A DNA stretch of 64,000 nt from Clostridia bacterium (GTDB lineage Bacteria > Bacillota > Clostridia > Oscillospirales > Acutalibacteraceae), in assembly GCA_017621885.1 (NCBI GenBank), contig JAGASD010000033.1:1-64000 (forward strand). Direction: 5' to 3'. The position numbers and the translations under genes were made by a program. The notes under the pieces are model-generated. The model did no database searches, had not been told where the DNA came from, and saw nothing but the letters and a program-made list of their open reading frames with translations. The first letter of the stretch is position 1. Every line of letters begins with the position of its first letter. Positions 4,360-63,599 of the stretch are shown piece after piece.

Positions 4360-4368
4360 GAATTTGTT

Positions 4369-15477: not shown

Positions 15478-15493
15478 GGAGGTAAAATGAGCT

Positions 15494-40737: not shown

Positions 40738-42450
40738 TCATTTTAGTTCCTTATATTTCGAATTAAACAGAGTTGCAAAAGATTTCTCTATTTTTTTACC
40801 TTTTTTTGCGTTGTGTTTTTCAATGTAGTATTCACATTCTCTTTCACTCAAATTACATATCAAAGATAATTTGTACCTTGCTCGAGAAGATCCAACATAC
40901 ATTACCTGCTCGACATTTTTATCAAATGTATCATTATTTAAATCCACCATAATAATTACATCTGCTTCTAACCCTTTATACTTTCGACAGGTTGTAAAAG
41001 GTATCTTTTTAGTTTTGTACAAATAGACTCCTGTTGAGCATTCATCTGAAATTATACTGCTTTGCTCAGTTTTACAGGTAAGGATTTGGATATCAGTATA
41101 ATCTTCTGCCCACACCTTATCAATAATTGCATTAAGTGTCAATACGGTTTGGTTTACATCATCTGCAAAATACATTTCCGGAGAATCTCCAACAATGGCG
41201 CCATCAAATAATTTCGGCTTTTTATTCTCTCCAAGTAAGCGCAAAGATGTAGTAGCAATATTTTCAGTATTTCTACAATTTCTATATAGTGTTAATTTGC
41301 AATCAGATTCACCTATATAAGAAGGCAAAGATTCTGCTTGTACCATTTGATTCTTATCGTAGAAAAGATAGAATGTACCGTTTTTACCTTCATCTACAAC
41401 ATTTGCTTTTAGCAACTCAATTATTGAAATATCATTTAATCGCTCTTTGCCAAAATCTTGTCCTTCATCAATAATAATATGTTTATAAGGAAAAGTCTCT
41501 TCAAGATACATCTCTTCAAGTGTGTCTTTTAAACGATCATAATTTGGAGTAATGGTATCACATAATTTACAAGCCAATCCATCAATTGTATAAAATGATA
41601 TGTTCGGATGACCATAATTCTTTTGAAGATATTCTTTTAAGTAATAGTTATAACAAAGGAATAGTACAGATTCATCTTTTTCAGCATGACGTCTTGCTTT
41701 TTCGACTGCCATAACAGTTTTGCCAGTCCCAGCCAATCCATTTATAACTGCGTTATCCTGCTCTTCAAGATAATTCAAAAGAGCAACTTGTTCCTTCAGC
41801 ATTCTTTTGAATACATAGCGCTGATTCTCTACCTTCAAATTAGCAATTGGAATCAAATCAAACGATGGTGCTAAAAACTTATTAATAAGCAGCTTAATAT
41901 CTGTAGATGTGAGTTTAGTTTCCACTTTATTAGGAAGCTCAATATCAAATATTGACGAGATTTCTTCTTCGATATTATCAAATGAATCAGCTGTCAATGT
42001 GATTTTCATATCACCTTCAGATGGTAGGCAAATCCGCCTCATATATTCTTTATCAATAGAGGGAAACCAAACTGCATGTAATAGTTTACAGCGACTTGTT
42101 AAATATCCATAGTCACTATTTTTAATATAGTCGCGCAATCGCCATTTTCCATTCTCTGCTTGACGATATGGACCTCCATGGCTCATTTCATCGCCGCTTG
42201 CATATTTCCACTTATTACCTTCGAACTTAACCCTACCAGCTTTCGCTTCAATACACAAAATGCCTTTTTGAGGATGAAAAATGACAAAATCCGTCTCACT
42301 TGCATTAATAACACCTTCATCTACATTAACAATCTTAAACGAATGAAAAACATAGTATTCTTCGGGCAAATCCTTGAGAACTTTGAACATAATTTCTTCT
42401 CTGCTTGCAGGGGTACACTCATAGGGAATATCTGGATACATTATAGCCAT
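40738..42450 (-). CDS. NERD nuclease-domain / UvrD-Rep type SF1 helicase fusion
   Basis: The 570-residue protein starts with a nuclease-related (NERD) domain: INASETDFVIFHPQKGILCIEAKAG, with a D54...E68-x-K70 catalytic triad of the restriction-nuclease type. A UvrD-like helicase follows: Walker A GLAGTGKTVMA (~238-248), Walker B HIIIDEGQDF, a motif-III-like LFYDKNQMVQ, and motif VI VGSSRARYKL near the C-terminus. Such fusions occur in phage-defence islands and are thought to cut or process foreign DNA. It starts 4 bases after the stop of the DUF1998 helicase, with its GAGGTG inside that gene's end, so it is the third gene of a tightly packed operon. Confidence 0.88.
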   Translation of the reverse strand: MAIMYPDIPYECTPASREEIMFKVLKDLPEEYYVFHSFKIVNVDEGVINASETDFVIFHPQKGILCIEAKAGRVKFEGNKWKYASGDEMSHGGPYRQAENGKWRLRDYIKNSDYGYLTSRCKLLHAVWFPSIDKEYMRRICLPSEGDMKITLTADSFDNIEEEISSIFDIELPNKVETKLTSTDIKLLINKFLAPSFDLIPIANLKVENQRYVFKRMLKEQVALLNYLEEQDNAVINGLAGTGKTVMAVEKARRHAEKDESVLFLCYNYYLKEYLQKNYGHPNISFYTIDGLACKLCDTITPNYDRLKDTLEEMYLEETFPYKHIIIDEGQDFGKERLNDISIIELLKANVVDEGKNGTFYLFYDKNQMVQAESLPSYIGESDCKLTLYRNCRNTENIATTSLRLLGENKKPKLFDGAIVGDSPEMYFADDVNQTVLTLNAIIDKVWAEDYTDIQILTCKTEQSSIISDECSTGVYLYKTKKIPFTTCRKYKGLEADVIIMVDLNNDTFDKNVEQVMYVGSSRARYKLSLICNLSERECEYYIEKHNAKKGKKIEKSFATLFNSKYKELK

Positions 42451-42454: not shown

Positions 42455-45400
42455 TTACACCTCTATTTTAGATATAAACTCATCAACATCAAAATCTTTA
42501 TTCAAACAATAACAAGTAAACTCTGTTGCTTTGGCCGTTTCGTAACTAGTTTCATTTTCTGTGAGGAAAAGAATAACTTTTTTCTCTTTCCAAATAAGGT
42601 CGGTATATATTTCTTCTCCGGTTTCAACTACTTTTATGGATTCTCCATACCACGGTTTTGAAATGTTTTGGGGACACTTTTCAAGTATAGTTTTTAAAAT
42701 CCCCTCTTCCTCTTGGCTGCAGTCATCAATTAAGTTTGTCCATATTTCTTCTACAGAATCGGCGGTTTGATTTAGACCGTTATTACAAAAAGTAATCTGT
42801 AGTTTTTGAGATTCATCATCCTCTTGGAAAGGATTGATAATCTCATACACATTTTCATCTCTTGTAGTAGGCCATTCTTCATTCAAAGGTAAATCAAACA
42901 TACGATAAAAGTCAATAGCGTAGTATCTTTTAAGAATATCGTGCTGCTTTTGATTGTAATAGTTTAACAAGCAACTATAACAAGCCGTATCAGCCAGTTC
43001 TTCACCACATACACACGTATCAACAACTTTAAAACCCGCTTTCAACATTCCGGAAAGAACGTTCGGATTTTTTAGCTGTCTCACATAACCGGCTCCACCA
43101 GGTGTATTATCAAAAATAACAAAGCCAAAATTACCATTAGGATGATTGATATCTTTAAACCAATGCAAACAACCTGACAGTTCATTTCTTTCAATATCCA
43201 AATACCGACTTAACCCCTCAAGCATTGAATAAAGAATAGTCCATGCTTCATCAGGTTTTAGAATGTTAAAGTCAATGAATTTCAGAATGGCTACATCTGT
43301 TTGGAATTCATGCCCTAATGAAAATCTTCTGAGCCTATCATTGTTGCAGTTATGACCATTGGGATTTTTGTGCGAATGCTGAATAAATCTATCTGTAATC
43401 TTATCGTCAACAATGCCATACCCACAAGTTTCGCATACAAAGAAGTTTGATTCATTTATAACGGCTAGCGAATCCATTTTATTATTACCTATTACAACAT
43501 TTACATCGCCGACTGTGTATTTATGGAACGATATTTGTTCTTCGTTACCAATATAAGCCACAGAGCCTTTATACGTTCTTTCCGGTTTATTTAATCCAAC
43601 TGGTTGCGGACCGGAATTATCCAATAAAAAGCCAAACTTTGGAATAATGTATTGTTGTGCTCGACCCGCTAGCAACGCTCCACATTGACGGCACTTTTTA
43701 ACTTCGTGATATTGCTTTCTTGTTAAAGTGTTACACTCTTTACAAAAAGAATAGTTGTAGGTAGGCCATTCATAACCACTTAATCGTCTTATGTAACGAC
43801 TTGTGTAAAGATTTCCATCTGCCACAACCTCAGAATCGGGCGCATACTCAGAAATTGCCGCGAATAAATCTCTGCTTAAACGCAACGACGAACCAGCCCC
43901 TGCTGTTGAGCTTTGCAATTCAACCGTATCAACAGGGAAACCGTATTTGGGTATTAAATTATTTTTTGACAGAAATTCTATTATGCGTTGATCTTTGATT
44001 GTGTTTATAGATTTTTGAATTTTTGCCGCATAATATAAAAGGTTTTGCTTTCCCTTATTATTTGCAGCTTCATCTATACTTTCTTTTAAGACTTTTTCCA
44101 AATCTTTTAAATCATCATTGTATTTATCTACTACTATGTTACACAATCCTCTATTATCGGCATCATCATTGAACATTAAACTAATCCAACCAAAGTTCTC
44201 AACATCAAACACACTCTTCAAATCAGAGGGGACGACATGTATGAGATATTCTTTAAGATCGCTCGGCACATCTTTTAGATAAGAGTATAATTCATCAAAT
44301 CCGTTATTATCCATAAATTCGCCGATAGTATCTTTATATAGATCAGGATGCAGCTTCCAGAAAAACGAGAAAGCAGAAGCAAAAATATGTCTTAAGACTA
44401 TTTTATCGTTGCTCACATTAAAGAATGGCGGTTTTATTTTACCTTCTATCATTGCCGTGGGGTTTCTGTAATAGTTAAGGTCGTGAGAACTATTAGGACA
44501 GAAAGTAATAGCATACGCTGCAGATTTAAGACTACGACCTGCACGACCTGCTCTTTGGGCATAGTTAGCCGGTGATGGCGGCATATTTCTCATAAACACC
44601 GTTTCAAGCGAACCTACATCAACACCCATTTCAAATGTTGTAGAACAACTTAGCACATTGATTTTCTTATCTTTAAAACGTTTTTGATACTCATACGCAG
44701 TTGTGCTTGAAAGTTGAGCCGTATGTTCGTGTACAGACATGGGCACAGGGTTTAATGTTGTGTATATTAAATGATATATATTTTCTGATAAATTCTCGTC
44801 AAATGGTATTAAATTACCACAGCAACCGGGTTTATCACAAATTTCCTTTATATTATATGGATAAACCGACTTGCATTCAGAACAACGATATAGTTGTTTA
44901 ACATGTTTAACTAGTATTTTTCTACAGTTTAAACGATAGGCATGACGAGTTTTCAGAGGAACTAAAACAAGATATTCTTGCTGGACTAAGTATTCCCATA
45001 TTGCATTCAACAATTCCCTTGCCTCAGTCTCATTTCCATCTAACAATTTTGTTAGATATTTAAGCCTTTTATTTGTTTTGTTTTCTTCTGGACACCAACC
45101 TTTGATATAACTATATCCTGCCGCAACACGGTCGTATCCTAATGCAAAACCAGATACAGAAAACTCCTCTTCATCTGCCTTAGTAAAAGCGATATCGGTA
45201 GCAATTGCTGCATCACTCATCAAATCACGAACCAAAGTTTTAAAAATCTCCGTAATTTTTTCTGCCGAAAATCCAGCATATGGAACATCAATTTTCAAAT
45301 CGACTTCAAAAAGAACATTACCCATTCGAAGAATAGAGTTTTTGGCCTTGGAGTTTGACATTTCTTTTATCAAAGAAATCCACGCTTTTTTTTGAAGTTC

Positions 45401-47548
45401 CTCGTTTGACAAATCTTCAAAAACATTGTATTTTTCAAATTTCTCCTGCAATTTAACAGCAAAACCTTGAAGCGACATACCATCGCGTACTTTTTCTTCA
45501 TTTTCTTCTATAATTTGGTACATGAGTCTTTTAATTAATGAAGATCGGTACGTAGACTCTAAATATGTTGCAAAAAATGCGGCCGTTTGTCTATTATCTG
45601 AAAAAGCTAAAAATTGTTTTGTTAGATGCTCAATCGCCTCTTTTTTATTTATAAAAGCACCTAAAAAAGGATTTGTAGATATTTCTTCTGTTACATTATG
45701 AATTTCACTAGGCAATTCATTATAAAGTGCAGTTGCAATTACAGAAGTTGCAGCTTCCGCACCTAAAAAATATGGTCTTAAAATACTACGTTGACTGTTC
45801 TTACTGTGACAACATGGACAACTATGTAAAATTGCTCCAGCTTCCTTCACTTTCACTACAACATTAAAGTACTTAGCGTCATGACCACACTGCAATCCAT
45901 TAACTGATGTCTTCCTTTTTATTGCACCACATTTAGCACAAAGCAAGTAAACATTATCATCCTCGTCATCTGTATCAAGATCACCACTCAACAAGAAAAC
46001 CTCCGGATTATAGTCATCTGAATATTTTGACTTTTGGATTAAAACACCATCTTGCTCTTCACCAACAATATAAAGTGCACAGCAGTTATTGCAGAATGAC
46101 ACTTCAAAGACTTTTAGTTCTGTCTCTTCATCATATGGATCCTCTCTATATGTTTCCATACGGTTAATAAAAAGTTTATTTGATGGATTAAGTGTAACAA
46201 AAACCCCTTCCATACCACGAATAAACATATGATATTTAGCTTCAAAAAGTCTTTCATTGTTTCTCATTGCATTTGATGCAACAGCTATGAAATCCGTAAA
46301 ATCATCAGCGGACATTGATAATTCCATTGCCACTTGATTCACGGTTTTTATTTGGCGATACAAGACTTTTCTCACATGATAATAGAACTGATCATGTAAA
46401 ATCAGATCAAATAAAATTTCTTCCACATTCAGACTATTATCATATGTAATATTATATTTTTGAATAATATTTTTGATTGCATCATCCGACAGATTTTTTC
46501 GAATAGCTTCAGCGAGTTCTTTGTAAAGTTCAAATTCCAATTCAATAACTTCATGCTCTGGCTTAATCTCACGTGTGTAAGAACGCACTATTGAATTCTT
46601 GGTAAACTCAGCAGTACATAACGAATTGCCAAAATTTAAGATATCATCATCTGATTTTTCATCACCCAAAGTAGCACTAGTTAAGATGAATTTAATGTCA
46701 TACCTATTGAGCATTGCTTTTACACGCTTAATAAGTGAAGCAACTTCAATACCTTTAGCCCCTGTATAAGAATGAGCTTCGTCGAAAACAATATATTGCC
46801 ATTTTGAAGCATTAGTTTGACTAAAAATAATATTATCACCAGGTCTAAGCAACATATATTCGAGCATCGCATAGTTGGTAATTAAAATATTAGGAGGAGT
46901 ATTGCGCATTTGCTCTCTTGAAATTAATTCGTTTTCACAAAGTGGCGAAACATCAATATCCTCAATTTCTTCATATTGTTTTTTTGCTTCCTTATATGTT
47001 TCCTTTGTTTCGCCAGTGAAGCGACCAAATGTAATTTTCTTATCGCCATCCATTTCTGAAAGCAACTCTCTAAGACGACGAATTTGGTCGTTAACAAGGG
47101 CATTCATAGGATAAATTATTAGGGTGCGTACACCTGCATCTAAAGTTCCATTTTCTTTTTCTTTAAGAAGTTGGTTTATTACAGGAATCAAGAAAGATTC
47201 TGTTTTACCAGAACCGGTACCGGTAGTAACGATTAAGTTTTCGCCAGCATTTGCTTTTCTTACTGCTTCTTCCTGATGAAGGTATAATTTTCTATCTGGA
47301 TGAAAGTTTTTGATTTTGAGAATTTCCTTTGAAACGATTCCTTCATCCGCCAATTCGTTTAAAGTTTTTCCTTTTTTGTAAGGGTCAGACATACTTATAT
47401 AAGGACCATCAGCAATAGCCTTGTCCTTTTCCAATAACTCTTTTAATTGTTTATTATAAACTTCTTTATTGGTAGAAAATGTTGTTAGTAAATATCTTCT
47501 GTAAAAGTCCACTATCCTTTTGGAACTTTCAGACGGTCTAAATAACAT
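42455..47548 (-). CDS. Very large DEAH-box helicase with DUF1998-type C-terminus (DruE/DrmA-like)
   Basis: The 1697-residue SF2 helicase has VTTGTGSGKTESF (Walker A ~109-116), FDEAHSYTGAKGIE (DEAH 256-259), LTSATLG (291-293), STTFEMGVDVGSLE and RAGRAGR (motif VI). Zinc-type Cys groups lie at CNNCCALYIV, CAKCGAIKR, CPCCHSKNS and CSECKSVY. The C-terminus has the DUF1998/MZB pattern: DNTPGGAGYVRQL ... DTCVCGEELADTACYSCLLNYYNQ. Helicases of this type occur in Druantia (DruE), DISARM and MrfA. Paired with a large unknown upstream protein, the layout fits Druantia type III best, although an MrfA-like repair role remains possible. A new variant cannot be excluded. Confidence 0.85.
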   Translation of the reverse strand: MLFRPSESSKRIVDFYRRYLLTTFSTNKEVYNKQLKELLEKDKAIADGPYISMSDPYKKGKTLNELADEGIVSKEILKIKNFHPDRKLYLHQEEAVRKANAGENLIVTTGTGSGKTESFLIPVINQLLKEKENGTLDAGVRTLIIYPMNALVNDQIRRLRELLSEMDGDKKITFGRFTGETKETYKEAKKQYEEIEDIDVSPLCENELISREQMRNTPPNILITNYAMLEYMLLRPGDNIIFSQTNASKWQYIVFDEAHSYTGAKGIEVASLIKRVKAMLNRYDIKFILTSATLGDEKSDDDILNFGNSLCTAEFTKNSIVRSYTREIKPEHEVIELEFELYKELAEAIRKNLSDDAIKNIIQKYNITYDNSLNVEEILFDLILHDQFYYHVRKVLYRQIKTVNQVAMELSMSADDFTDFIAVASNAMRNNERLFEAKYHMFIRGMEGVFVTLNPSNKLFINRMETYREDPYDEETELKVFEVSFCNNCCALYIVGEEQDGVLIQKSKYSDDYNPEVFLLSGDLDTDDEDDNVYLLCAKCGAIKRKTSVNGLQCGHDAKYFNVVVKVKEAGAILHSCPCCHSKNSQRSILRPYFLGAEAATSVIATALYNELPSEIHNVTEEISTNPFLGAFINKKEAIEHLTKQFLAFSDNRQTAAFFATYLESTYRSSLIKRLMYQIIEENEEKVRDGMSLQGFAVKLQEKFEKYNVFEDLSNEELQKKAWISLIKEMSNSKAKNSILRMGNVLFEVDLKIDVPYAGFSAEKITEIFKTLVRDLMSDAAIATDIAFTKADEEEFSVSGFALGYDRVAAGYSYIKGWCPEENKTNKRLKYLTKLLDGNETEARELLNAIWEYLVQQEYLVLVPLKTRHAYRLNCRKILVKHVKQLYRCSECKSVYPYNIKEICDKPGCCGNLIPFDENLSENIYHLIYTTLNPVPMSVHEHTAQLSSTTAYEYQKRFKDKKINVLSCSTTFEMGVDVGSLETVFMRNMPPSPANYAQRAGRAGRSLKSAAYAITFCPNSSHDLNYYRNPTAMIEGKIKPPFFNVSNDKIVLRHIFASAFSFFWKLHPDLYKDTIGEFMDNNGFDELYSYLKDVPSDLKEYLIHVVPSDLKSVFDVENFGWISLMFNDDADNRGLCNIVVDKYNDDLKDLEKVLKESIDEAANNKGKQNLLYYAAKIQKSINTIKDQRIIEFLSKNNLIPKYGFPVDTVELQSSTAGAGSSLRLSRDLFAAISEYAPDSEVVADGNLYTSRYIRRLSGYEWPTYNYSFCKECNTLTRKQYHEVKKCRQCGALLAGRAQQYIIPKFGFLLDNSGPQPVGLNKPERTYKGSVAYIGNEEQISFHKYTVGDVNVVIGNNKMDSLAVINESNFFVCETCGYGIVDDKITDRFIQHSHKNPNGHNCNNDRLRRFSLGHEFQTDVAILKFIDFNILKPDEAWTILYSMLEGLSRYLDIERNELSGCLHWFKDINHPNGNFGFVIFDNTPGGAGYVRQLKNPNVLSGMLKAGFKVVDTCVCGEELADTACYSCLLNYYNQKQHDILKRYYAIDFYRMFDLPLNEEWPTTRDENVYEIINPFQEDDESQKLQITFCNNGLNQTADSVEEIWTNLIDDCSQEEEGILKTILEKCPQNISKPWYGESIKVVETGEEIYTDLIWKEKKVILFLTENETSYETAKATEFTCYCLNKDFDVDEFISKIEV

Positions 47549-50445: not shown

Positions 50446-50739
50446 AATGCAGTTCTCCTTTGGGTTTAAAATATTGCTATCTAATCATAATTTATTTACG
50501 TACCTGCAAGATTTTTCGTTCATTTTCTTATCAATAAATCCTATACAAATAATTGAAACTACACATATTATATTTTACACCTAAATGTCGTAATCTGTCA
50601 ATTTAAGTATTACAATTACAAGTTGCTTCCGGAAACGGTATTATTAAACAATCTTTTTAAAAAATTTGTATACAAAACGAAGAACATACCGAATATAAAC
50701 AGGTTCTGTATGTTCTTCGTATAATTAGACTTTTTTCAC
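50446..50739. other. Gap between the LRR cluster and the helicase operon
   Basis: AT-rich, no gene. A 13-bp perfect stem (50677-50689 with 50708-50720, 18-base loop) followed by T-rich sequence on the minus strand could end the LRR-cluster transcript. The rest should hold the helicase operon promoter. Confidence 0.55.
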
Positions 50740-51040
50740 TTATTCAGCAACAAAAACTCGTATTGCTATAGCAACAACAATTGCAGGAAGTATGTGTAAC
50801 TCATACATAGCAGAATATATATTTCTTTCGCCAGAATATGTGCTTCTCTCTAAAAAACGTTTCCAAGCATCAACCGCACCATCATAGGGGGCAAGAACCT
50901 TTTCAATTGCTGCAGAGTCTATAGTGGTTTCAGTATAGTTGTTTATTTGAGCATCCTGAACGTAGCACCAACCATCATAAACATCTTTAGTTGCCTTTTC
51001 GTAAAGTTCCTTAAAAAGTTTTTTCTGGATAGTTACTCAT
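50740..51040 (-). pseudogene. Frameshifted short paralogue of the N-terminal domain of the 736-residue LRR protein
   Basis: From the ATG at 51040 the frame reads MSNYPEKTF and stops. One base fewer in the A6 run (51019-51024, T6 on the plus strand) would give EKLFKELYEKATKDVYDGW... through ...ILPAIVVAIAIRVFVAE, ending at 50740, ~98 residues. This resembles the start of the adjacent LRR protein (EKLFYEIYEETLKHA ... SINNYHP ... KWKLFLEN ... AIAIAVAIKVFL). It is either a decayed fragment, a sequencing slip, or a programmed slip on the A6 run. No LRR follows. Confidence 0.6.
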
Positions 51041-51077
51041 ATTAATTCATCTCGATAAAAAAATCACTTAATTAGTT

Positions 51078-53288
51078 TTAATATACAGACGTTAACTCAC
51101 TCAATGAATACACCTTCGTTCCGGTGCCTTTATACTTTTTATAAATATCCGTATCTTCTCCCGCATAAAGCTCTGCTGAACTTGTAATACCAATATTCGC
51201 AGGGATGTTAGGGTTGCCGCGAACAATTACTTTTCTGGTTGCCCAACCAACAATATTGCCACCGATTTTTGTAACCGATGAAGGAATATCCAATATTTTC
51301 AATCTGGTAAGAGCAAAGGCATAACCATCTATAATTTCTAAACCGTCCGGCAAACCTATTTTTTCCAGACCGCTATTTTGAAAACAGTATTTCTCAATTT
51401 TTTTAATATCTACAGGAACAATAACATCGCGAATTTCAAGATGACCTTCAAATAACCGTTGACCAAGAGTAGATACACCCTTGCCGTCTATTTCAGCAGG
51501 AACATTTATAGTTTCATCTTCATACCCGAAATAATACGCTATCTTTAAAGTGCCATCTTTTAGTGGTTTGGTTTTCCAATAACTCTTTTCAACTGTATCT
51601 CCCTCAATTGAATCCAATATCACTATTTTATTTCCGATATACGTTAAAAACTCTTTATATGCACGTGGTGAAAACATAATATTCTTGTTAGGTATAATTA
51701 TTTTTTTCAATGGCTTCCAAAAAACTCCGCTCGCAATAGCTACAACTGGTTTTCCTTCCATAACAGCAGGGATTTCAATTACAGAATCATCACCTAAATA
51801 ACTTGTAATTACTATACCATCATTAACTAAATCAAGAGCGAATGTTTTCTTCCACTCTTTTATCGTTTTGTCATCAACATTTCCCGAGTTTTTCTTCTGT
51901 ACATTAAGCTTAGCTATCTGCTTTTCAGAATAATTATCAGAAATATATCTTTCAAGAGCTGATTTTAACGTTAAACTTCCTTTATCAGTTGCTTTTTCAA
52001 TATAAATACTTATCTCTTCTGGTTTCGGTGTCTTAAAAAGAGATAAAAGGTTGACAAGAGCAATATCATTGTCAGCTTTAATGCAAACATCAATAATTTG
52101 ACTTTTATATGTTTTAATCTTTTTCAAAGCGTTTTCATCATCTTTCACAATGTGGAAGTATTCACCCAACCATGAAACTAAAACATTCACATCAGCCCCC
52201 TCAGTGTAATCCGAGTGGATACATTCCCATATTTTTTCCAGAGGACTGCCTTTATAGGTTTTTATCCCCTCTTGCGGAATGACACGTGACAATGCAAAAC
52301 AATGATAAAAGATTTCACCGAACCTACCGCCAACTAATTTAGTGAGATTTGCATTTACCGCTATTGTTTTCAAGGTTTTACAATCTTTAAAAGCTGTTTT
52401 TCCAATTTCATTAAGTGAACGAGGAAGCGCTATAGATTCCAGTTTTGAACAACACTCAAATGCACTTTTACCTATCTTTGTAACTCCTTCAGGTAATTCA
52501 ATGGACGATAATTCAATACAACCACAAAACAAATAATCATCCATAATATTCAAGGCTACCGGTATTTTAACAGAGTTTAATTCCTTACAAAGATAAAATG
52601 CACCCTTACCGATTGTTTTCACGCTATCCGGTATATCAATTTTGGTAATTCCGCTACGAGAAAACGCATAATCACCTATCTTTTCAACCGAATCAGGTAT
52701 GATTACCGAAGAAATATTTCTGTATTCGAAAGCTCTCTCCCCTATTTCTTTAGCTGTATCGGGAATAACTACAACAGAATCATTGCCCCTGTACCCCTTA
52801 ACAACACCATTTACTACAACAACCTGAGTATCTTCCGCTATGTATTCCTTCCCTCTTCTCAAATACTCCTGATAACATTCAACCTGAGCTTTGGTATAGA
52901 ATCCTGCGCCTTTTGGTGCAGATGGTGATATAGCCCACCAATACTCAACACAACGTTCGTCAAATCTTTCTACATAAAAAGAAAACGAAATCTCCACCTC
53001 GGGACACAGAAAAACTTTAATTGCTACAGCTATTGCAATGGCGGTTAGTGCTTGTGTACCATCATCCATCAAGCAATTCAGGTTTTCATTTTCTAAAAAC
53101 AATTTCCACTTTGCTGTAGCTTTGTATTTATTAAGCACATTTTCAACGCCATCTAAGACATTGCAACACGGATGATAATTATTAATTGAAGCACGCTCAA
53201 CAAAGAGTCCGCTATCTGCACCCGCGTGTTTTAATGTCTCTTCATATATTTCATAAAACAACTTTTCTTTTTCTGCAAAAACATTCAT
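51078..53288 (-). CDS. Cytoplasmic BspA-type leucine-rich repeat protein
   Basis: The 736-residue protein has no signal peptide, unlike most BspA proteins. Residues ~1-150 form a helical domain shared with the fragment at 50740. Residues ~160-320 are LRR_5 repeats (VVIPDTAKEIGERAFEYRNISSVIIPDSVEKIGDYAF type), ~330-470 a helical middle, and ~490-720 more degenerate LRR_5 units (GVSTLGQRLFEGHLEIRDVIVPVDIKKIEKYCF). LRR_5 arrays bind proteins or other ligands. AAGGGGGA precedes the ATG. It is part of the minus-strand run below the WYL-like regulator. Confidence 0.88.
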   Translation of the reverse strand: MNVFAEKEKLFYEIYEETLKHAGADSGLFVERASINNYHPCCNVLDGVENVLNKYKATAKWKLFLENENLNCLMDDGTQALTAIAIAVAIKVFLCPEVEISFSFYVERFDERCVEYWWAISPSAPKGAGFYTKAQVECYQEYLRRGKEYIAEDTQVVVVNGVVKGYRGNDSVVVIPDTAKEIGERAFEYRNISSVIIPDSVEKIGDYAFSRSGITKIDIPDSVKTIGKGAFYLCKELNSVKIPVALNIMDDYLFCGCIELSSIELPEGVTKIGKSAFECCSKLESIALPRSLNEIGKTAFKDCKTLKTIAVNANLTKLVGGRFGEIFYHCFALSRVIPQEGIKTYKGSPLEKIWECIHSDYTEGADVNVLVSWLGEYFHIVKDDENALKKIKTYKSQIIDVCIKADNDIALVNLLSLFKTPKPEEISIYIEKATDKGSLTLKSALERYISDNYSEKQIAKLNVQKKNSGNVDDKTIKEWKKTFALDLVNDGIVITSYLGDDSVIEIPAVMEGKPVVAIASGVFWKPLKKIIIPNKNIMFSPRAYKEFLTYIGNKIVILDSIEGDTVEKSYWKTKPLKDGTLKIAYYFGYEDETINVPAEIDGKGVSTLGQRLFEGHLEIRDVIVPVDIKKIEKYCFQNSGLEKIGLPDGLEIIDGYAFALTRLKILDIPSSVTKIGGNIVGWATRKVIVRGNPNIPANIGITSSAELYAGEDTDIYKKYKGTGTKVYSLSELTSVY

Positions 53289-53370
53289 AAAAATCCCCCT
53301 TGTTTTCTATAGTGAAATTAGTTGAATTTATTTTCATCGTGGAGCGTAATCAATTGGTTTAAACCGATAT

Positions 53371-56352
53371 TTAATCCTCATACGGCGTATCTTTAAAGCC
53401 TTTTTGTTGAAGCTTGTCAACCATTTTATCGAGAACAGATTTCCACATTTTTCTGAACCATTTAGTATTGCCAAACCACTTTACAAGAGCAGGGCTGATT
53501 GCATAATAAAGCATTATAAACAATCTTCCGAGAAGTGAGGCTGCAAGGCTGTAATCCCTGAATCTGCGCAATGTCCAGACCTCAGGACAATCGTATGAAC
53601 CATACACAGCAGTAGCCACATAACAGCCCGATTTTTTAGGTTTATCTTCTGGTTTTTCAGCTACAGGTGGCGGTGCAGAAACAGTTCCGTTATTAGCTTT
53701 AGACTGTGATTTTACTGTAGTTGTGCTCTGCTGTGGTTGAGTATCTGGCTGCGCAGCTTGCACGGAATTTGCAGTTGCTTTTGTTACAGTTTTTGTTTCT
53801 TGTTTTTCGGGTTTCACAGAAACATCATCGTAAACTTGACCTGGCTTACATACGATAAGCTTTGCCCCAAGTTTTGTCGAAAGCTTCTCAGCGTTAACCA
53901 TTGCCTTTGAGCCTTCACAAGCATAAATCGTCTTGATTCCAGTGCATTTGGCAAATGTTGTCATAAGTAATTTCTCGACGGATTCAGCAACAAAAACATC
54001 TTGTAATGATGTACACTCAGCAAAAGAATTTTTACCAATTATTTTCACGCCGTTTTCAAATATAACGGTAACTAAACTGGTGCAATTACAGAAATTGTTC
54101 TCACCTGTATCAACAACATTCCCTGAAATAATAAGTTTCTTAATGTAATGATTCCTTGCAAAAGCTCCACTGCGGATTTTGGTCACTGTTGAAGGAACTT
54201 TATATTCTTCTGTTCTTTTTGCTACAGGATAGTAAATAAGTTCTGTGCCGTCTTTACTCAACAATACGCCATCAACAGAGCTAAATACCTCGTTATCCGC
54301 AGATACATCAACACGGGATAAGCTTCTTAATTTTTGGAATGGCAACTCACTTTGTATATCAACCTTCTTCAATGTACTTGGTAATATTAGTGATGTTACA
54401 TTGCTGATTTTCTTGTTAGAGTTGTAGAACTTACCTGAAGCAAATTGAACAACACCCTCTGGTATAGCTATATTAGATGCTGTACCACTATATTTTTTTA
54501 ACAAGCCCTTAGCATCAACTTCAAAATCTTCGTCCTCAGATACAAAACCATTTAACCAGAATTTTTCATCTAATTCAAACAGCAACGCATCAATTTTATC
54601 GCAATATCCGCCCCCCCATAACTCAATTTGCCATACTCCAAAATCCGTTTCAACACCTTTTAGACTAAGCAAATAATTATTCCACAATCCCATTATACGT
54701 TCAGCACTATACTGAGTAGTATTCGTTTCCCACCAATCAACATTAGGATATAATACATCTTCCGGGACATCAGAAATATCAGAACCCATAATCTCTTTCA
54801 CTCTTCTGACAAATGTTTCAAAGTCATTTTCTCTGTATTTAGGATAAGGTTTGCCCTGCTCTAACAGTTCTGCAAAATCTTTAGGGAAAATATTATTAGG
54901 TTTAAATTCAATTGGTATGTACTTACCACGTTTGGTAGCTTCATCGATTTCCGCCTGTTCGCGTTGTCTTGCCTCTTCTGCAAGAGCCTGGGTTTGTTCA
55001 AGTATAGAATCAAGAGATGCGGATATATCACTAAGAGCATCCACTATTTCAGCCTTAGCTTTTTCTGCGGCAACAGGGTCGAAATCGTCGTCATCGAAAT
55101 CATCAACAGAATCTACCGGTATAGAAACTTTTTTTGGTTTTGCATCAATCTTGTAATCAACACCATGGGATTTACAATATTCCTCTGCATATGAACCAGC
55201 GGGGCAATGAATTGTAAGTTTATCGCAACCACCAAAAGGTGTTTCATCTGCATAGTTATCCTGTATCAGAGTAACACTGGCAGGTATATATAAATACTCC
55301 AAGTTTTTACAATTAGTAAACGCCGTAAAACCAATCAACTCTACTCCGTTAGGAATTACTATGCTTGTGAATTTACGACAATTCTTAAATGCAAACGCAT
55401 CAATTCGCTTTACACCTTTAGGAATAACAACGTTTTCAAGTTCATAACACTCGCTGAACAAACTGTCAGAAACTTCTTTTATTTTTTCGGGTAAAATAAT
55501 TTGTTGCAACTTGTGACAATCACAAAAACAATATCCACTCAATTCTTTTATAGTAGAAGGCAAAACTACTTTTTTTAGCTTGTCACAGCCTTCGAATGCA
55601 CGTCTGCCAATTGTTTTTACCCCCTCAGGGATAACAATTGACTCTATATTCATAGGGCTGAAAGTGCCGTCAGGAATTTCTGTTAAACCACTTGGAAGTT
55701 TAAGGTTTTTATCTTTTCCGATATATTTTCTTAAAACGGTACCCTCGACAATATAATCAGGATCATTAAATCCTTGCGGTGCACTCTTTGTTGTTTTAGT
55801 TTTTGCGGACGTCGTTTTTTTAGAAGAAAGCAACGTGACGGAGTTTGCTATTTCCCTTGCAAAATCAAACAATACTGAAACATCACTTTCATCAAATTCC
55901 TTTACAAAGGTACAGAAATTGAATGGCTCGATATTTGTACCTCTAACACGAATTTGAAAATCATTACCAATAAAAAGCATACATTCACAAACTATGTCTA
56001 CAAATAAATCCTTTTCGTCCTTTATTATTCTTTGTACAAAGGTACCGCTATCATCTGCTGCTCGATTATCATATTTACAATCCATAACAGTTTCAAAATT
56101 ACCGAGCAAATGAAAGTGCCTCTCAAGAGCGAAATTCAAAAGTTTTGCATAGTTACTGTTTTTACTCTTAATAACCATGGGCTTTTGAGGGTTTGATAAA
56201 TCAATTCCACCACCGAAACCTCCATCAAAAGAACAATCAACATCATATTTAACGTTTTGTGGTAATCTAAATGACCATTGGTTATTTACGTAAATAAGAT
56301 TAGGATCATTAGAATCAACGCTAATTATCTCACTTAATTTTTTCTTTGCCAT
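53371..56352 (-). CDS. Large LRR protein with C-terminal CFI-box domain
   Basis: The 993-residue protein has no signal peptide. Residues ~1-180 are a distinct alpha/beta domain, ~215-370 LRR_5 repeats (IVIPEGVKTIGRRAFEGCDKLKKV), ~420-480 a charged coiled-coil stretch (DDFDDDDFDPVAAEKAKAEI), and ~640-840 more LRR_5. A Pro/Gln/Thr-rich linker (~855-905) leads to residues 910-993, a CFI-box-type C-terminus: CYVATAVYGSYDCPEVWTLRRFRD ... GRLFIMLYYAISPALVKWF. CFI-box domains are short conserved tails of unknown function with a possible membrane-associated segment. AAGGAGTG precedes the ATG. LRR sensing joined to a CFI-box is an unusual combination. Confidence 0.88.
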   Translation of the reverse strand: MAKKKLSEIISVDSNDPNLIYVNNQWSFRLPQNVKYDVDCSFDGGFGGGIDLSNPQKPMVIKSKNSNYAKLLNFALERHFHLLGNFETVMDCKYDNRAADDSGTFVQRIIKDEKDLFVDIVCECMLFIGNDFQIRVRGTNIEPFNFCTFVKEFDESDVSVLFDFAREIANSVTLLSSKKTTSAKTKTTKSAPQGFNDPDYIVEGTVLRKYIGKDKNLKLPSGLTEIPDGTFSPMNIESIVIPEGVKTIGRRAFEGCDKLKKVVLPSTIKELSGYCFCDCHKLQQIILPEKIKEVSDSLFSECYELENVVIPKGVKRIDAFAFKNCRKFTSIVIPNGVELIGFTAFTNCKNLEYLYIPASVTLIQDNYADETPFGGCDKLTIHCPAGSYAEEYCKSHGVDYKIDAKPKKVSIPVDSVDDFDDDDFDPVAAEKAKAEIVDALSDISASLDSILEQTQALAEEARQREQAEIDEATKRGKYIPIEFKPNNIFPKDFAELLEQGKPYPKYRENDFETFVRRVKEIMGSDISDVPEDVLYPNVDWWETNTTQYSAERIMGLWNNYLLSLKGVETDFGVWQIELWGGGYCDKIDALLFELDEKFWLNGFVSEDEDFEVDAKGLLKKYSGTASNIAIPEGVVQFASGKFYNSNKKISNVTSLILPSTLKKVDIQSELPFQKLRSLSRVDVSADNEVFSSVDGVLLSKDGTELIYYPVAKRTEEYKVPSTVTKIRSGAFARNHYIKKLIISGNVVDTGENNFCNCTSLVTVIFENGVKIIGKNSFAECTSLQDVFVAESVEKLLMTTFAKCTGIKTIYACEGSKAMVNAEKLSTKLGAKLIVCKPGQVYDDVSVKPEKQETKTVTKATANSVQAAQPDTQPQQSTTTVKSQSKANNGTVSAPPPVAEKPEDKPKKSGCYVATAVYGSYDCPEVWTLRRFRDYSLAASLLGRLFIMLYYAISPALVKWFGNTKWFRKMWKSVLDKMVDKLQQKGFKDTPYED

Positions 56353-56450
56353 ACTCGCACTCCTTGTATTTTTATAAATAAATTGTTTTATCCTGCATCA
56401 CTCATTTGCAGCACATTTTTAACGCCATCAAAACAATTATACAAAGCCCA

Positions 56451-58760
56451 TTACATATTGCTGTAGCTATATTTCGAGCTTCTGAAAACTCTACCTTCAG
56501 GATATTCTTTTGAAAGCTCAAAAGCAATAAAATATGAACTGCAGTAATCGCCACGGTATTCCCATTTATCTCTTGTGAACTCAATCTCAACACTATTCTC
56601 TGGCGAACCATAAACAAAACTTGCAACAGCCAATGCAACAGGACATTCAATTCCTACAATTCCATCGAGTGAACAACCACCTAAAATAAATCTTGAACTG
56701 TTTACATCTTTGGGAGTATGAGCTGCTCTGTATTTTTCTTTATATACTTCCGCTGTTTTGGTATGGTCATCCCCCCAAGTATCATTACTTTTAGCAACAG
56801 CATCAAAGAAAGTGTAAGCATCTTCAAATTTACGGCCTTTGCTAAGTACACCTCTAATTCTTGCATCCTGACTACATATAGCGTGATTATATGTTTTATC
56901 TTTTTCAATCATGCCATTTATTTTTGACACACAAAGGTCATATAGTGCTATAGCACGTTGAAGCTTTTCTTGTGGACTTTCATGCTTATACTGATTAAAA
57001 ATGCGTATATCTTCTTTGACATCAATTTGACGCGCCAACACAAATTGAGGTGAACCAGATTCCTCTAATCGCTTAAGCGACTGTAAAAGGACATCATCTT
57101 CAGACTCCTTAATTTGTTTTATGTTAGAATACCAGGTTATAACATATTCCACATTCTTGGAAAGTGTTCTTTTAATCGATGCCCCGTGACGTTTCAAAAT
57201 TGAACTAATTCTTTTTCTGTAATCATCGTAATCAACCACTACCAGGCATCCCTTGCCCTGTAAAGAATCCAAATTTACATTTATGAAATATCGAGAATCA
57301 GCAATTATACCCGCACTTTCCAGAAATGCTTCAACACTACATCTTTTATTGAGTCGAATATAAAACTCAAAATCACTCACAACATCTTCAGAAAAGTCGC
57401 TCAGTGCGTCCTCAACAGAGGTGAAGCTTTTGCCGTTTTCAATATCTTGATACAACGAACTCATCACATCTCCGAAAAGTTCATCTCTATCAAATTCGTC
57501 AAGAAGTTCACAGTACACACCCAATTTATTAAAATTGCGAGTATCTCTATAATAATCACGTTCTCTGCCAGGAAAAATTATGTAATAAAATTCCCTTTTA
57601 CTGATACCAAAATTTTCTTTAACAGATTTCTCTGTAATAACGAATTTTTTTCCACTATTATTAAATGCAATATTCAAGTCAACAATAATTTGCTCATACA
57701 AATCATCCACATTGGGCCGGAGCAAATTGCGTTCTTTCAAGAATTCGTTTAATGAATACATTGGGTATGCGATTTTAAAATACTTCCTAAAGATTGTTTC
57801 TGAAATATCGCTATTTTTATCAAACAAATCACTCAATGACTTAGGCCGAGAATATATTGAAGTTTTACTTAAACTAACAAAAACATCATCTACATATTTT
57901 TTGGCTTCATCTGTGGATATATCTTTTGTTCCAATAAACCCCTGTTCTTTAAAGTATCTGGCAGGTGTCGTGCACAACTTTAACCTTATATAATCAAGAA
58001 TTTTCTTATCTTCAATTCCAGGATTTTCTTTTATCAATTGATCGTATGTTCTAGGAATGTTATCAGAATATTTCTCACGCAAATTTTCTACCAATTCACA
58101 AAAACCTTTTTCGATATCATCCCAATCGTTGGGGCTTTTAACACGATCTTTCTCGCATAAAATCCCAATAGAGCATAAATACTCCTTCAATCCCATACCA
58201 AAAACTTTAGGAGAGTTGTTTTGCAAAGACTTCCATCTTATATCTAAATCTTCACAATCTTTTTTCAAGTCATTTAATGATGTAAACGGTGAACCATCAG
58301 GGTACTTTTGCTTCAATAAATCGATAAATTTATTGTAGTCATTGTTTCCCGAAAAGATTTTTTCAGCAATAGTGTAGCCATATGCACGCAAAAGAGCTCG
58401 TCCACTTGGATATCCCAATTTCCTATATAAATCAGTTAAAGTTTCAGCTCTCTTTTTTTGGTCTTTTTGCAAATTGAAAACAATCTTAAATGGATACGCA
58501 GCGTCTATTTTAGATAATAATGTATCAAGCCTTGATTTGAGGTTTTCCGGTTCCTTGCCAATAGGATATAGCACACCCGACAAATCCTCGTGTGGGTCCT
58601 CTATTATTCTAATTTGCAAAATCTCTATGTATTTGTCACGGTCACCGTTTTTAACAGCTTCTTCAAGAAGTTTCTGCTCCTCTGCTGATAATATTTTTAC
58701 TCCACCATTACCGTTGTTTCCTCTGTCAATTACACCAGATTCACCTTGATAATTACTCAT
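56451..58760 (-). CDS. Large helical-repeat protein of unknown function, possible BRCT-like segment
   Basis: The 769-residue protein has no signal peptide. Residues ~80-480 contain four or five degenerate ~85-residue helical units, each ending in a pattern like EYLCSIGIL, RYFKEQGFI, NEFLKERNLL or EAFLESAGII. Residues ~490-540 (LQGKGCLVVVDYDDYRKRISSILKRHGASIKRTLSKNVEYVIT) look somewhat BRCT-like. The C-terminal ~90 residues (PVALAVASFVYGSPENSVEIEFTRDKWEYRGDYCSS) weakly resemble the N-terminal domain of the LRR protein at 51078 (AIAVAIKVFLCPEVEISFSFYVERF). GAAGGAG precedes the ATG. No function can be assigned. Confidence 0.75.
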   Translation of the reverse strand: MSNYQGESGVIDRGNNGNGGVKILSAEEQKLLEEAVKNGDRDKYIEILQIRIIEDPHEDLSGVLYPIGKEPENLKSRLDTLLSKIDAAYPFKIVFNLQKDQKKRAETLTDLYRKLGYPSGRALLRAYGYTIAEKIFSGNNDYNKFIDLLKQKYPDGSPFTSLNDLKKDCEDLDIRWKSLQNNSPKVFGMGLKEYLCSIGILCEKDRVKSPNDWDDIEKGFCELVENLREKYSDNIPRTYDQLIKENPGIEDKKILDYIRLKLCTTPARYFKEQGFIGTKDISTDEAKKYVDDVFVSLSKTSIYSRPKSLSDLFDKNSDISETIFRKYFKIAYPMYSLNEFLKERNLLRPNVDDLYEQIIVDLNIAFNNSGKKFVITEKSVKENFGISKREFYYIIFPGRERDYYRDTRNFNKLGVYCELLDEFDRDELFGDVMSSLYQDIENGKSFTSVEDALSDFSEDVVSDFEFYIRLNKRCSVEAFLESAGIIADSRYFINVNLDSLQGKGCLVVVDYDDYRKRISSILKRHGASIKRTLSKNVEYVITWYSNIKQIKESEDDVLLQSLKRLEESGSPQFVLARQIDVKEDIRIFNQYKHESPQEKLQRAIALYDLCVSKINGMIEKDKTYNHAICSQDARIRGVLSKGRKFEDAYTFFDAVAKSNDTWGDDHTKTAEVYKEKYRAAHTPKDVNSSRFILGGCSLDGIVGIECPVALAVASFVYGSPENSVEIEFTRDKWEYRGDYCSSYFIAFELSKEYPEGRVFRSSKYSYSNM

Positions 58761-58778
58761 ACTAATTACTCCTTCAAA

Positions 58779-58943
58779 TTATTCAAAATCTTCGTACTGA
58801 ACTTCGTCTTCACCGAAAGTGTTTTTATACATTTCAATGATTTCATCGTTGGTTTTTTGTTTTAACACACGGTCATAATAGTTTTCAAAACCTGCAGCCT
58901 CATAAAACTCAGCCAATTCACATCTCATGTCTTCAATATACAT
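58779..58943 (-). CDS. Small acidic helical protein, unknown
   Basis: The 54-residue product (MYIEDMRCELAEFYEAAGF ... NTFGEDEVQYEDFE) is strongly acidic and helical. GAGGTGATTGACT lies directly before the ATG at 58943, overlapping the end of the 541-residue gene, which argues for a real, co-translated gene. It ends 18 bases before the start of the 769-residue gene. The segment TNDEIIEMYKNTF is a pattern I have seen in short Clostridia proteins without function. Confidence 0.65.
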   Translation of the reverse strand: MYIEDMRCELAEFYEAAGFENYYDRVLKQKTNDEIIEMYKNTFGEDEVQYEDFE

Positions 58944-58954
58944 AGTCAATCACC

Positions 58955-60580
58955 TCAGCACAAATCGCAATCTTCGCAAATATCGTCAGGATTTAATGTT
59001 GTACGCTTCAAGTTTCTTTTGATTACTATTTCATCAGATAAAATATCCCCTGCTTTGGGACAATATTCGCAGATGTAATCGACGATTTCCTCATCGTTTT
59101 CAAGTTCATCAGAAATGTAATAAGCCATTTTAATATTAGTCTTTATAATATCATCACGCATAGCTTTCGGAACTGTTCGTAACAAGTCTGCTACATAAGG
59201 TGCAAGGACAAACGATTCATAAGAATCAACAAGTCTTGCAATCAACTGCGGGTCAGTATCCATAATCATTTCATATGTTGCCATTACAGCAATATCGTGT
59301 ACATCTGCGTCATTTAAAAGACCGAAGCGTCTTTTAATATGCTCTGCAAGCTTTTCGTCTTCGCAAACTTTATTTACAAAATACTTACGCAGTGTATAAA
59401 CATAATACGGATATGATTTCAAAAAATGATTGTGGTTAATTTTCCCGAAAATTTCATCAGTCAAATCCGCCCAATCTGCCATAGAAGAACTAATTATTTT
59501 TTCAAAAACATCTTTATCATTACTCCATGAAACAAGAACGTCTTCGTCAATAGAATCATCATAAACGTTCAAACCATGAGGACTGATAATACCATTCAAT
59601 TTAAGATATGCTATGTCACCCCTTGATGCACCACCGGAAAGGTGCATATGTCTACCAATTCTCCAACCACTAAGAATTGCTCTTGCCTCTTTTTCATACG
59701 GGTCATTAGCTTCAATAAATGCAATTGCCACATCTTTATTCATTTGAATTTCTATTGGGAAAGACTTAATCAAACGAGGATATCGCCTTATTAATTCAAT
59801 TACTTTAGAAATGTCAGTTTCCTTTGCAAGCTCTTCCTTATGAAGGAAATTATAAAACAAGGCACAATCTGTTGGAATAACACTTTTCTCGTCACAATCT
59901 TCAACAAAGATATTCGGAACACAAAAATCCACCTCTTCGAAAGTATCACAAAAAAGTGCATCAAGAAGCACGACTATTCCATAAACCAGATTAGAACCGT
60001 TATCATCAGAAATCGTATATTCAAAATCATATGTAAGCTGACCATTTTCAGAAACACTTAATTCGTGTTCCTCATAATTGAAACAAATGGTTATTTTTGC
60101 CCAATCGTTGTTTACAATGCAAATTTTCTGTACCAGTTTAATGAATTTCGATACATTTTGATAACAATTAAAACCTATTCTATAAGGCCAGTTATCTTCC
60201 TTAATTCTATAAAGTTCTTCTTCAAGCCAATATCCATCTTCTACGTAACCGGTCTCATCTACTACAGACATATCATAAACCCACGCATCAGAAACATCAT
60301 ACTTGGCTTCCATTTCAGATTTCTTTTCTCCAGGGTCATTAAAAAGAGCGTTCACATCATACATAGCTTTGTAGCCAGTTTCTAAAATTATGGTTCCGCA
60401 AGATGAAACATCAAGAACGTGGTCACTACCACCATTCTGAGAAAAAATCTGAAATTCTGAATCCGTAAGGAAATCATACGCTTTCTCAGGTGTAGATAAG
60501 TCAATCTGACTTGCATCTAAGCCAAGTCTTGCAGGGATTGTATCTACGATTTCTTTAATTGTCATTTTCTGTTTTTTCAT
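58955..60580 (-). CDS. Large hypothetical protein
   Basis: The 541-residue soluble, acidic protein begins MKKQKMTIKEIVDTIPARLG and ends in a Cys cluster (DDICEDCDLC) that could bind metal. The middle (IRRYPRLIKSFPIEIQMNKDVAIAFIEANDPYEKEARAIL) resembles degenerate helical repeats of the DUF4116 kind, but the match is weak. GAGGTAATTAAAA precedes the ATG. It lies between the WYL-like regulator and the small acidic gene, all in one direction. No catalytic motif is seen. Confidence 0.72.
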   Translation of the reverse strand: MKKQKMTIKEIVDTIPARLGLDASQIDLSTPEKAYDFLTDSEFQIFSQNGGSDHVLDVSSCGTIILETGYKAMYDVNALFNDPGEKKSEMEAKYDVSDAWVYDMSVVDETGYVEDGYWLEEELYRIKEDNWPYRIGFNCYQNVSKFIKLVQKICIVNNDWAKITICFNYEEHELSVSENGQLTYDFEYTISDDNGSNLVYGIVVLLDALFCDTFEEVDFCVPNIFVEDCDEKSVIPTDCALFYNFLHKEELAKETDISKVIELIRRYPRLIKSFPIEIQMNKDVAIAFIEANDPYEKEARAILSGWRIGRHMHLSGGASRGDIAYLKLNGIISPHGLNVYDDSIDEDVLVSWSNDKDVFEKIISSSMADWADLTDEIFGKINHNHFLKSYPYYVYTLRKYFVNKVCEDEKLAEHIKRRFGLLNDADVHDIAVMATYEMIMDTDPQLIARLVDSYESFVLAPYVADLLRTVPKAMRDDIIKTNIKMAYYISDELENDEEIVDYICEYCPKAGDILSDEIVIKRNLKRTTLNPDDICEDCDLC

Positions 60581-60682
60581 TTTTAATTACCTCATTTTCT
60601 TTTTATTCGGGAGTGTTCTCCCTTCGTTGTGTCTTAATTATAAAACACATAGAGAAAAAGAAATATCCTAAAAAACCGACAA

Positions 60683-61306
60683 TTAAAATTCGTTTTTTTC
60701 TGCTCTTAAATCTATGATTTGTGAAAGCTTATACTCACCATTTACAAACTGAATTAAAAGATCTCCTGCGCTTACACTCCAACCGACAGGTATATCAATA
60801 ATTCTTTCACTGAAGTTTTCTCCATCATATATTTTGAATCTTAACTCAAGCTTGTTTTTTATTGCAAAATCTATTAATTCAAGTTTTTCAATACCGTTGA
60901 TTTCATTTTTACCGGTTCTTGCCTGTTTCTTTATCATCTCAATTTGTTCTTCACTATCAAAGCTTGCGTTAAATGTAATACACAATTTTTCAATAATCTG
61001 TTCCGCTTCAAGACGAGAAAGAACATCTGTATCTGCAACTAAAGCACATAAAAGCTCTGCTTCTGTTGAGGTGAGAGCGTATTTTAGCTTAAGACGGTAA
61101 CTGGAATACCTTCCTCTTTTATATTCAACTTCATATTCTGCAGAATCGTTTATTTGCTCGATAATAGCAGCAAACTTTTCACGTTTGAATTTAATATTAT
61201 AATCATTTTCAAGATATTCCATTATCTGATTATGGGTAAGCCCTTTAGGATTATCATATTTTTTCAAAATATCAAGCACTGCAAAAACAGCTTCTCTGTT
61301 AGCCAT
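60683..61306 (-). CDS. Winged-helix/WYL-like transcriptional regulator
   Basis: I chose the ATG at 61306 (207 residues, MANREAVFAVLDILKKYDNP), since AGAGGTG lies just upstream; a longer frame opens at 61333. An N-terminal winged helix (KGLTHNQIMEYLENDYNIKFKREKFAAIIEQI) is followed by a helical spacer (LTSTEAELLCALVADTDVLSRLEAEQIIEKL) and a short Sm-like/WYL-type beta domain (NKLELRFKIYDGENFSERIIDIPVGWSVSAGDLLIQFVN). WYL regulators such as BrxR and CapW control many defence systems. It is first in the minus-strand cluster and probably controls it. Confidence 0.75.
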   Translation of the reverse strand: MANREAVFAVLDILKKYDNPKGLTHNQIMEYLENDYNIKFKREKFAAIIEQINDSAEYEVEYKRGRYSSYRLKLKYALTSTEAELLCALVADTDVLSRLEAEQIIEKLCITFNASFDSEEQIEMIKKQARTGKNEINGIEKLELIDFAIKNKLELRFKIYDGENFSERIIDIPVGWSVSAGDLLIQFVNGEYKLSQIIDLRAEKNEF

Positions 61307-63542: not shown

Positions 63543-63543
63543 T

Positions 63544-63599
63544 CTCGTCACCTCCAGAACTTTCTCGTCAATTATACCGTAAATGACGAGAAAAGGCAA
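63544..63599 (-). promoter_or_regulatory. Fic promoter with overlapping operator repeats
   Basis: On the minus strand TTGCCT (63594-63599), a 17-base spacer and TATAAT (63571-63576) form a good sigma-A promoter. A perfect 9-bp inverted repeat, TTCTCGTCA (63562-63570) and TGACGAGAA (63584-63592), flanks the -10, and a third CTCGTCA copy lies at 63544-63550 next to the start codon. A repressor bound to these would shut the gene; the Fic winged helix itself is a candidate. Confidence 0.75.

Follow-up and report, generated by a model that had tools for sequence, protein, structure and literature searches.

The window analyzed here is taken from a Clostridia bacterium genome (2.63 Mb in 64 contigs), of which it covers the opening 64 kb of contig 21, and carries a gene row of ~20 kb on the minus strand (61333 down to 40738), in which two leucine-rich repeat (LRR) proteins precede a DruE-type helicase. 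On balance, sequence comparisons favor the view that the six-gene LRR cluster forms the accessory half, with a probable sensory role, of a Druantia-like gene row directed against phages, whose effector core would be the protein P0009 and the DruE-type helicase, perhaps together with a NERD/UvrD-type helicase. As described in an earlier note on this DNA, the open reading frames (ORFs) P0006–P0005–P0004–P0003–P0002–P0001 all lie in one direction with short gaps, which measure 5 to 102 bp. The bounds given there (50740..61306), however, ended the cluster too early: after a 632-bp gap behind the LRR genes, the row continues on the same strand through P0009 (47560..50445, 961 residues), the DruE-type helicase (42455..47548, 1697 residues), which starts 11 bp after P0009, and the NERD/UvrD-type helicase (40738..42450, 570 residues), 4 bp after DruE. 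The helicase module, which had been placed merely beside the cluster, belongs with it, since the combination of P0003-family, LRR, P0009-family, and DruE genes recurs in two genomes besides that of the window. The main argument is drawn from this gene neighborhood and is independent of how many relatives carry BRCT or WYL domains.

By domain composition, the window helicase is unmistakably of the DruE type: Pfam reported DEAD, Helicase_C, and a MrfA-type Zn-binding (MZB) domain, and PADLOC matched it to DruE1 (1.4e-173) and DruE3 (3e-164). Used as a query against 394 genomes of the order, it matched 215, mostly over short or weak stretches. Near-full-length helicases with at least 36% identity were found in at least 6 of the 394 (G000, G286, G114, G049, G247, and G300), a lower bound because the order searches for DruE and P0003 scored at most two candidates per genome. 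The helicase of G089 is broken, and G434 provided a seventh intact member. These seven helicases (1559 to 1730 residues) grouped as a single clade in two trees (support, 99/100 and 100/100), to which neither DruE1 nor DruE3 belonged; the second tree dropped far_G361, far_G389, and far_G359 and added three rows, and several rows were long-branched in both. Using a greedy longest-ORF script for uncurated gene calls in the relatives, we found a P0009-family gene (911 to 1431 residues) directly upstream of all seven intact clade helicases. Outside this count stand the broken helicase of G089 (no P0009-family match was seen beside it), a helicase remnant in locus L056, and a 3-kb DruE-like contig of G432 that shows no neighbors. 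Within the P0009 family, pairwise matches linked the window to G286 (2e-28), G247 to G114 (3e-40), and G300 to both G247 (1e-12) and the window (1e-7), and a profile of the window pair matched four others (97.9%, 3e-13). Domains resembling the RNA polymerase alpha C-terminal domain were present at the start of two members and at the end of one; through such domains, PglW was matched by 2 of the 6 members scanned. Around far DruE relatives in nine genomes, blastp detected no P0009-family match, although the sequence runs no further than the helicase in two cases. The window's NERD/UvrD-type helicase matched PADLOC RTasNERD-Hel (1.5e-66) and Pfam UvrD_C (7.3e-6), and a 34% homolog, at 8739-10508 of L107, follows DruE in G049. 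A NERD-type protein after a DruE-type helicase was also noted at 14034-15764 of a Leisingera plasmid (L160, from its annotation).

Druantia type III (DruH-DruE of E. coli and M. smegmatis) has a comparable layout, with a large partner gene directly before DruE; according to the accessible parts of PMC13192584 and PMC13316683, that partner, DruH, is a proposed infection sensor. P0009 differs in having no DruH match. No PADLOC family was reported for it at E ≤ 0.01, and none of the six P0009-family members scanned (that of G300 lying outside the scan) matched PADLOC DruH at E ≤ 1, where the E. coli DruH control, encoded on a plasmid with Zorya II genes on one side and DruE on the other, gave E = 0. 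Alignment of the family to DruH with hhalign reached at best 6.9% across nine comparisons, a maximum that came from the smaller profiles and fell on a collinear N-terminal segment, and less than 1% with a nine-sequence DruH profile that left out a tenth locus (L134, an annotated piece of 356 residues next to a transposase). The collinear segment gave the top local alignment in six of the nine comparisons. Since neither PADLOC nor the nine profile comparisons gave significance, P0009 was rejected as a remote DruH; judged from these alignments, it could still be a very remote relative. One further comparison, to a Streptomyces neighbor gene taken as DruH, proved void as that gene is PglX/type-IIG-like; the helicase beside it was kept solely as an outlying tree row. 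Because P0009 matches no DruH model, the row may be an undescribed Druantia-like subtype.

In the parts of the E. coli study that are accessible (PMC13192584), DruH is a likely phage sensor and DruE a helicase-nuclease loading on 3' single strands; the corresponding parts of the M. smegmatis study (PMC13316683) describe a phage minor tail protein as activator of DruH-DruE and a DruE of 1667 residues, near the size range of the clade helicases. A distinct branch termed Druantia III-B or III-like has helicases mostly without the nuclease domain, as far as the available text of PMC12458937 goes, and its main text mentions neither leucine nor HIRAN nor BRCT. For the window helicase, Pfam listed no domain after MZB, and no HxK(x4-5)D was seen near the C terminus, a pattern that also missed the nuclease region in two DruE3 controls. 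The clade could belong to Druantia III-B, beside which we set it by description only. Druantia type I (DruABCDE) shares with the row that DruE1 is the best PADLOC match of the window helicase, but DruE1 falls elsewhere in both trees, and the listed matches of the row's proteins (25 of 48 for the helicase) included none of DruA to DruD.

P0003 (56451..58760, 769 residues) combines repeat-like stretches with a conserved module of ~140 residues (residues ~60 to 202), which appears helical by eye and is 35 to 50% identical to its counterparts in six other loci. The family is rare. Of 60 relatives, one, its own genome, contained P0003, as did at least 3 of 394 order genomes, its own included; among 336 genomes of the class, the module occurred only in the window's own. 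A match in G684 (E, 5.8e-4) had been set aside as false, the ORF lying within a polysaccharide-type cluster and matching nothing in the core set. A pattern-based module scan of an 84,980-species collection yielded six loci, two of them shared with the order search (identical P0007 and P0008), and thus, with the window, seven loci, a lower bound given the pattern-based scan. Viral contigs contained no match to P0003, to either of two versions of the module alignment, or to the P0009 alignment, and plasmids contained none to P0015 or to the P0009-family protein of G247.

Of the seven loci, three include an intact P0009-DruE pair and one borders on a DruE remnant; another lies in a BREX operon, and the remaining two lack a linked defense core. 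Apart from the window, the complete combination was present in a Lachnospiraceae metagenome-assembled genome (MAG), Lapin-030 (L059/G434), and in a Clostridia MAG from goat rectum (L055/G286). In L059, a WYL regulator (Pfam, 4.6e-8; the only confirmed WYL domain among the relatives), a 63-residue ORF, P0015 of the P0003 family, P0011, P0012, a 1431-residue P0009-family protein, and DruE follow each other on a single strand, no gap exceeding 77 bp. In P0011 (1435 residues), seven LRR_5 stretches are accompanied by a PriA_3'BD match that narrowly misses the cut-off, and P0012 has a HIRAN domain plus, by eye, a coiled coil. In L055, a 73-residue ORF and P0007 of the P0003 family lie on one strand and two LRR ORFs, P0010 of the P0009 family, and DruE (42%) on the other. 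Because the P0003 family is rare and near-full-length clade helicases were seen in 6 of 394 genomes as a lower bound, this repeated neighborhood is not expected by chance. The unit that recurs is thus made of P0003-family, LRR_5, P0009-family, and DruE genes. The families of 993, 769, and 541 residues, which the earlier note had proposed to follow across genomes, rarely co-occur: the N-terminal domains of P0001 and P0002 were each found in 1 of 345 order genomes and P0005 in 1 of 60 relatives, in every case the window's own, with no match to P0005 in phages.

LRR genes are present in four of the seven loci (the window, L055, L059, and L058). Those of the window encode P0002 (53371..56352) and P0001 (51078..53288), for which the assignment as LRR_5 proteins of 993 and 736 residues was borne out by Pfam (2.6e-75 and 3.6e-56). 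Both begin with an uncharacterized N-terminal domain; the LRR_5 blocks of P0001 are split by a non-LRR stretch. LRR_5 proteins of the BspA type are normally surface proteins, and the two could be ordinary members of that group located by chance near a defense island, an explanation to which the abundance of LRR_5 in this genome (59 matches) lends something. Their N termini speak against it. In an 11-residue hydropathy scan, by which alone signal segments were judged, the best N-terminal scores were 0.33 and 0.18, whereas 14 of the genome's 20 other LRR_5 ORFs scored 2.67 to 3.61; the remaining six scored 0.70 to 1.50, and at least three of these are gene pieces or edge-cut (two neighboring pieces, one edge-cut). 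The earlier statement that both lack a signal peptide, unlike surface LRR proteins, therefore holds within the genome, and in the absence of an N-terminal hydrophobic segment P0001 and P0002 look cytoplasmic. Given in addition the same-strand row with its short gaps, the linkage to helicase genes, and the LRR genes beside P0003-family genes at other loci, we consider chance proximity of surface proteins very improbable.

P0002 ends in a CFI-box-CTERM tail (NF041770; 72.6 bits, cut-off 40; residues 910 to 978 of 993), which the earlier note had missed, as it had the weak BRCT-like segment of P0003. Among the 40 genomes examined for the CFI box, 19, counting that of the window, gave a match; apart from P0002, these matches lie in ORFs of 319 to 509 residues and one of 161. 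A second CFI-box-CTERM protein of the same genome (L154, contig 23, 8981-9187), which, being no LRR protein, was excluded from the hydropathy comparison as a 21st row, lacks a signal segment and has, by eye, a zinc-ribbon-like start; hence the tail need not mean export. A literature search on the CFI box found no paper. Compared with plasmids, P0002 had 37 matching records, and among the 20 listed, the matches covered the LRR part only.

Several observations weigh against joining the cluster to the helicase core. An intact core is linked to the module in three loci only, a small number; two further clade members, G247 and G300, have the core without the module, which is therefore not required, and in G114 and G049 the contigs leave only ~1.1 and 0.6 kb of sequence ahead of the P0009-family gene, too little to show whether the module is present. 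G247 does contain an LRR ORF ~6 kb upstream of the core, which lies behind unrelated genes, has an exported-looking start by eye, and was not counted. The LRR ORFs, the P0009-family gene, and DruE of L055 run opposite to its P0003-family gene. Since LRR_5 genes are common in the window's genome, some LRR neighbors could be coincidence. In the window itself, P0009 and DruE may be transcribed apart from the LRR genes, as the 632-bp gap holds a remnant and a promoter-like site (11 of 12 positions, 50601-50572), although the 68 such sites overall are within expectation from shuffled sequence (63.1 ± 8.6). The remnant (50710..51027, minus strand), earlier described as a paralogous fragment, is indeed a decayed copy of a P0001-type N-terminal domain, with 37% identity over residues 7 to 108 of the query and two in-frame TAA codons. 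Finally, BRCT domains exceeded the Pfam cut-off only in P0019 and P0020, that is, in 2 of 7 loci, and the segment in P0003 (residues ~505 to 575) is marginal (PTCB-BRCT, 0.004, below the cut-off; 0.0043 with a local BRCT profile in a set of ~20 proteins).

Some of these points would also fit a P0003/LRR module that is a separate defense cassette, working alone and only sharing islands with Druantia-like and BREX systems. Such independence, which we regard as rather unlikely, would account for the core without the module in G247 and G300, for the interrupted row of the window, and for two loci in particular. In L058, a Ruminiclostridium MAG, P0008 of the P0003 family is found with a 97-residue ORF and an LRR protein, which together match P0011 (61% over 61 residues and 37% over 434), and with a homolog of P0012 (43% identity over 277 residues; HIRAN below the cut-off), and its genome has no DruE match, so that the module here occurs without DruE. 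A partial match to the WYL regulator of L059 (50% over 98 residues) lies on the opposite strand beside the module. L058 may, however, be the leftover of a larger system, having in its vicinity an ORF that resembles a recombinase (by eye) and another that briefly matches the NERD helicase (30% over 70 residues). In L060, a Clostridiales Family XIII MAG, BREX takes the place of DruE: the end of BrxC, PglX in two pieces, and PglZ are followed by P0016 of the P0003 family and BrxL. Lying inside the operon, between pglZ and brxL, P0016 looks integrated rather than nearby, and this position suggests that the P0003 family can serve other DNA-directed systems as a predicted adaptor. The row otherwise has little in common with BREX type I, as among the row proteins scanned only the helicase matched a BREX family (BrxHI, 8.2e-23), through its helicase domain and far below DruE. 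Against an independent cassette stand the position of P0016 and L059, where the module runs into the P0009-family gene and DruE on one strand.

The two remaining loci carry BRCT domains. In L056, an Oscillospiraceae MAG, a C-terminal DruE remnant (54% identity over 113 residues to the helicase of G434) abuts P0018 of the P0003 family, which is followed by P0019, with RCC1 repeats and two BRCT stretches; in L057, a Lachnospiraceae MAG, P0020 carries a Pfam BRCT domain and the module on a 4.3-kb contig, and the genome has a separate 3-kb DruE-like contig. P0019 matched the BRCT domains of RFC1 and DNA ligase A; comparison of the module profile and of BRCT-like segments with solved structures yielded no usable match. 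P0007 (0.081) and the LRR protein of L058 (0.068) remained below the Pfam cut-off, and the local profile found both. As P0019 and P0020 supplied the four segments behind the local profile, one of them (the second of P0020) picked by eye, any match of that profile to either protein is circular. Overall, two loci have firm BRCT evidence, and in three others it is weaker. A C-terminal BRCT domain suspected by eye in P0018 was dropped, as the local profile did not report this protein.

BRCT, HIRAN, and PriA-like domains bind DNA ends or forks. The row might accordingly be a DNA repair or stress operon whose helicases and domains of this kind serve the cell's own replication forks: the domain content of the relatives resembles that of repair proteins. 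One branch of YprA-family helicases is moreover described as acting in DNA repair in the accessible portion of PMC12458937. We nevertheless find a housekeeping role improbable. P0003 and P0005 were absent from all 21 same-genus genomes searched, the helicase belongs to a DruE-type clade, and a relative of P0003 has BREX genes as neighbors. The stretch also has a low G+C content (0.30 to 0.38 from 34000 to 64000, compared with 0.39 to 0.46 across the first 34 kb), which makes the row appear to be located on acquired DNA; a resolvase-type recombinase was noted alongside at 39362-40078.

Gene order, homologies, recurrence in further genomes, the helicase clade, and the lack of N-terminal signal segments are observed; for the accessory, sensory role that we favor, we infer sensing, contacts between the proteins, and defense itself. 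The cytoplasmic LRR proteins and P0003 would recognize an infection signal and then load or switch on the helicase. The signal might be a phage protein bound on the LRR surface or, as the BRCT, HIRAN, and PriA-like domains of the relatives suggest, unusual DNA ends or forks. By analogy with Druantia III, the LRR proteins may provide a changeable recognition surface, P0009 may act as the helicase partner, and P0003 as a DNA-end or protein adaptor, and P0006 may regulate expression. The earlier proposal of a defense or stress system with intracellular LRR sensors thus gains from the cytoplasmic appearance of P0001 and P0002, the linkage to a defense core, and the relative in a BREX operon; its sensing part stays conjectural. 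LRR domains serve as pattern-recognition receptors in plant and animal immunity. It is possible, though doubtful, that the row represents a new class of DruE-helicase immunity, in which intracellular BspA-type LRR receptors and adaptors with BRCT, HIRAN, or PriA-like domains recruit both the helicase and its partner, a new family, to invading DNA, the adaptor being pluggable into BREX as well.

If the sensory role is correct, a Druantia-like subtype with a different partner and detachable LRR, BRCT, and HIRAN accessories would offer sensing and effector parts that are separable and testable, and bacteria would be using BspA-type LRR repeats for immune sensing inside the cell. The means by which Druantia-type systems detect infection are just beginning to emerge, as the accessible parts of two 2026 reports indicate (PMC13192584 and PMC13316683). 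In the literature within reach, which excluded most subscription journals, no paper was found on the LRR/P0003 module with a DruE-type helicase; the topics of HIRAN or BRCT in defense islands and of intracellular LRR proteins were judged by titles among the matches listed. The one match for Druantia with leucine-rich repeats concerned CoCoNuT systems, in which LRRs are fused to a CDC48-like ATPase (PMC11090510).

The remaining genes of the row lie at its start. P0006 (60683..61333, minus strand, 216 residues), the first gene, is regulator-like. Its earlier assignment as a WYL-like regulator was made by eye and found no support: Pfam reported no match at E ≤ 1, and hhalign to three WYL proteins gave at most 1.8% probability, leaving a WYL or helix-turn-helix nature unconfirmed. 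P0005 (58955..60580, minus strand, 541 residues) has DUF4116 at its C terminus (PF13475; 1.6e-6, 28.0 bits, cut-off 24.9). P0004 (58779..58949, minus strand), a 56-residue ORF with 54 residues from its ATG, lies just before P0003, as the short ORFs of L059 and L055 directly precede their P0003-family genes; the resemblance among the three is one of position.

A Fic/DOC family protein with a winged-helix end is encoded upstream of the row at 62505-63599. In L060, the two pieces of pglX (864 and 337 residues, 3624-6102) lie ~2.5 kb apart, with small ORFs between them, one of which has a weak HEPN match. L059 also encodes a Schlafen AlbA_2 protein. At 769-8744 of L059 and 13832-17225 of L105, a UvrD-type helicase lies beside a protein with a cysteine-rich start (by eye), which has an RNase_T exonuclease domain in L059 and no Pfam match in L105.

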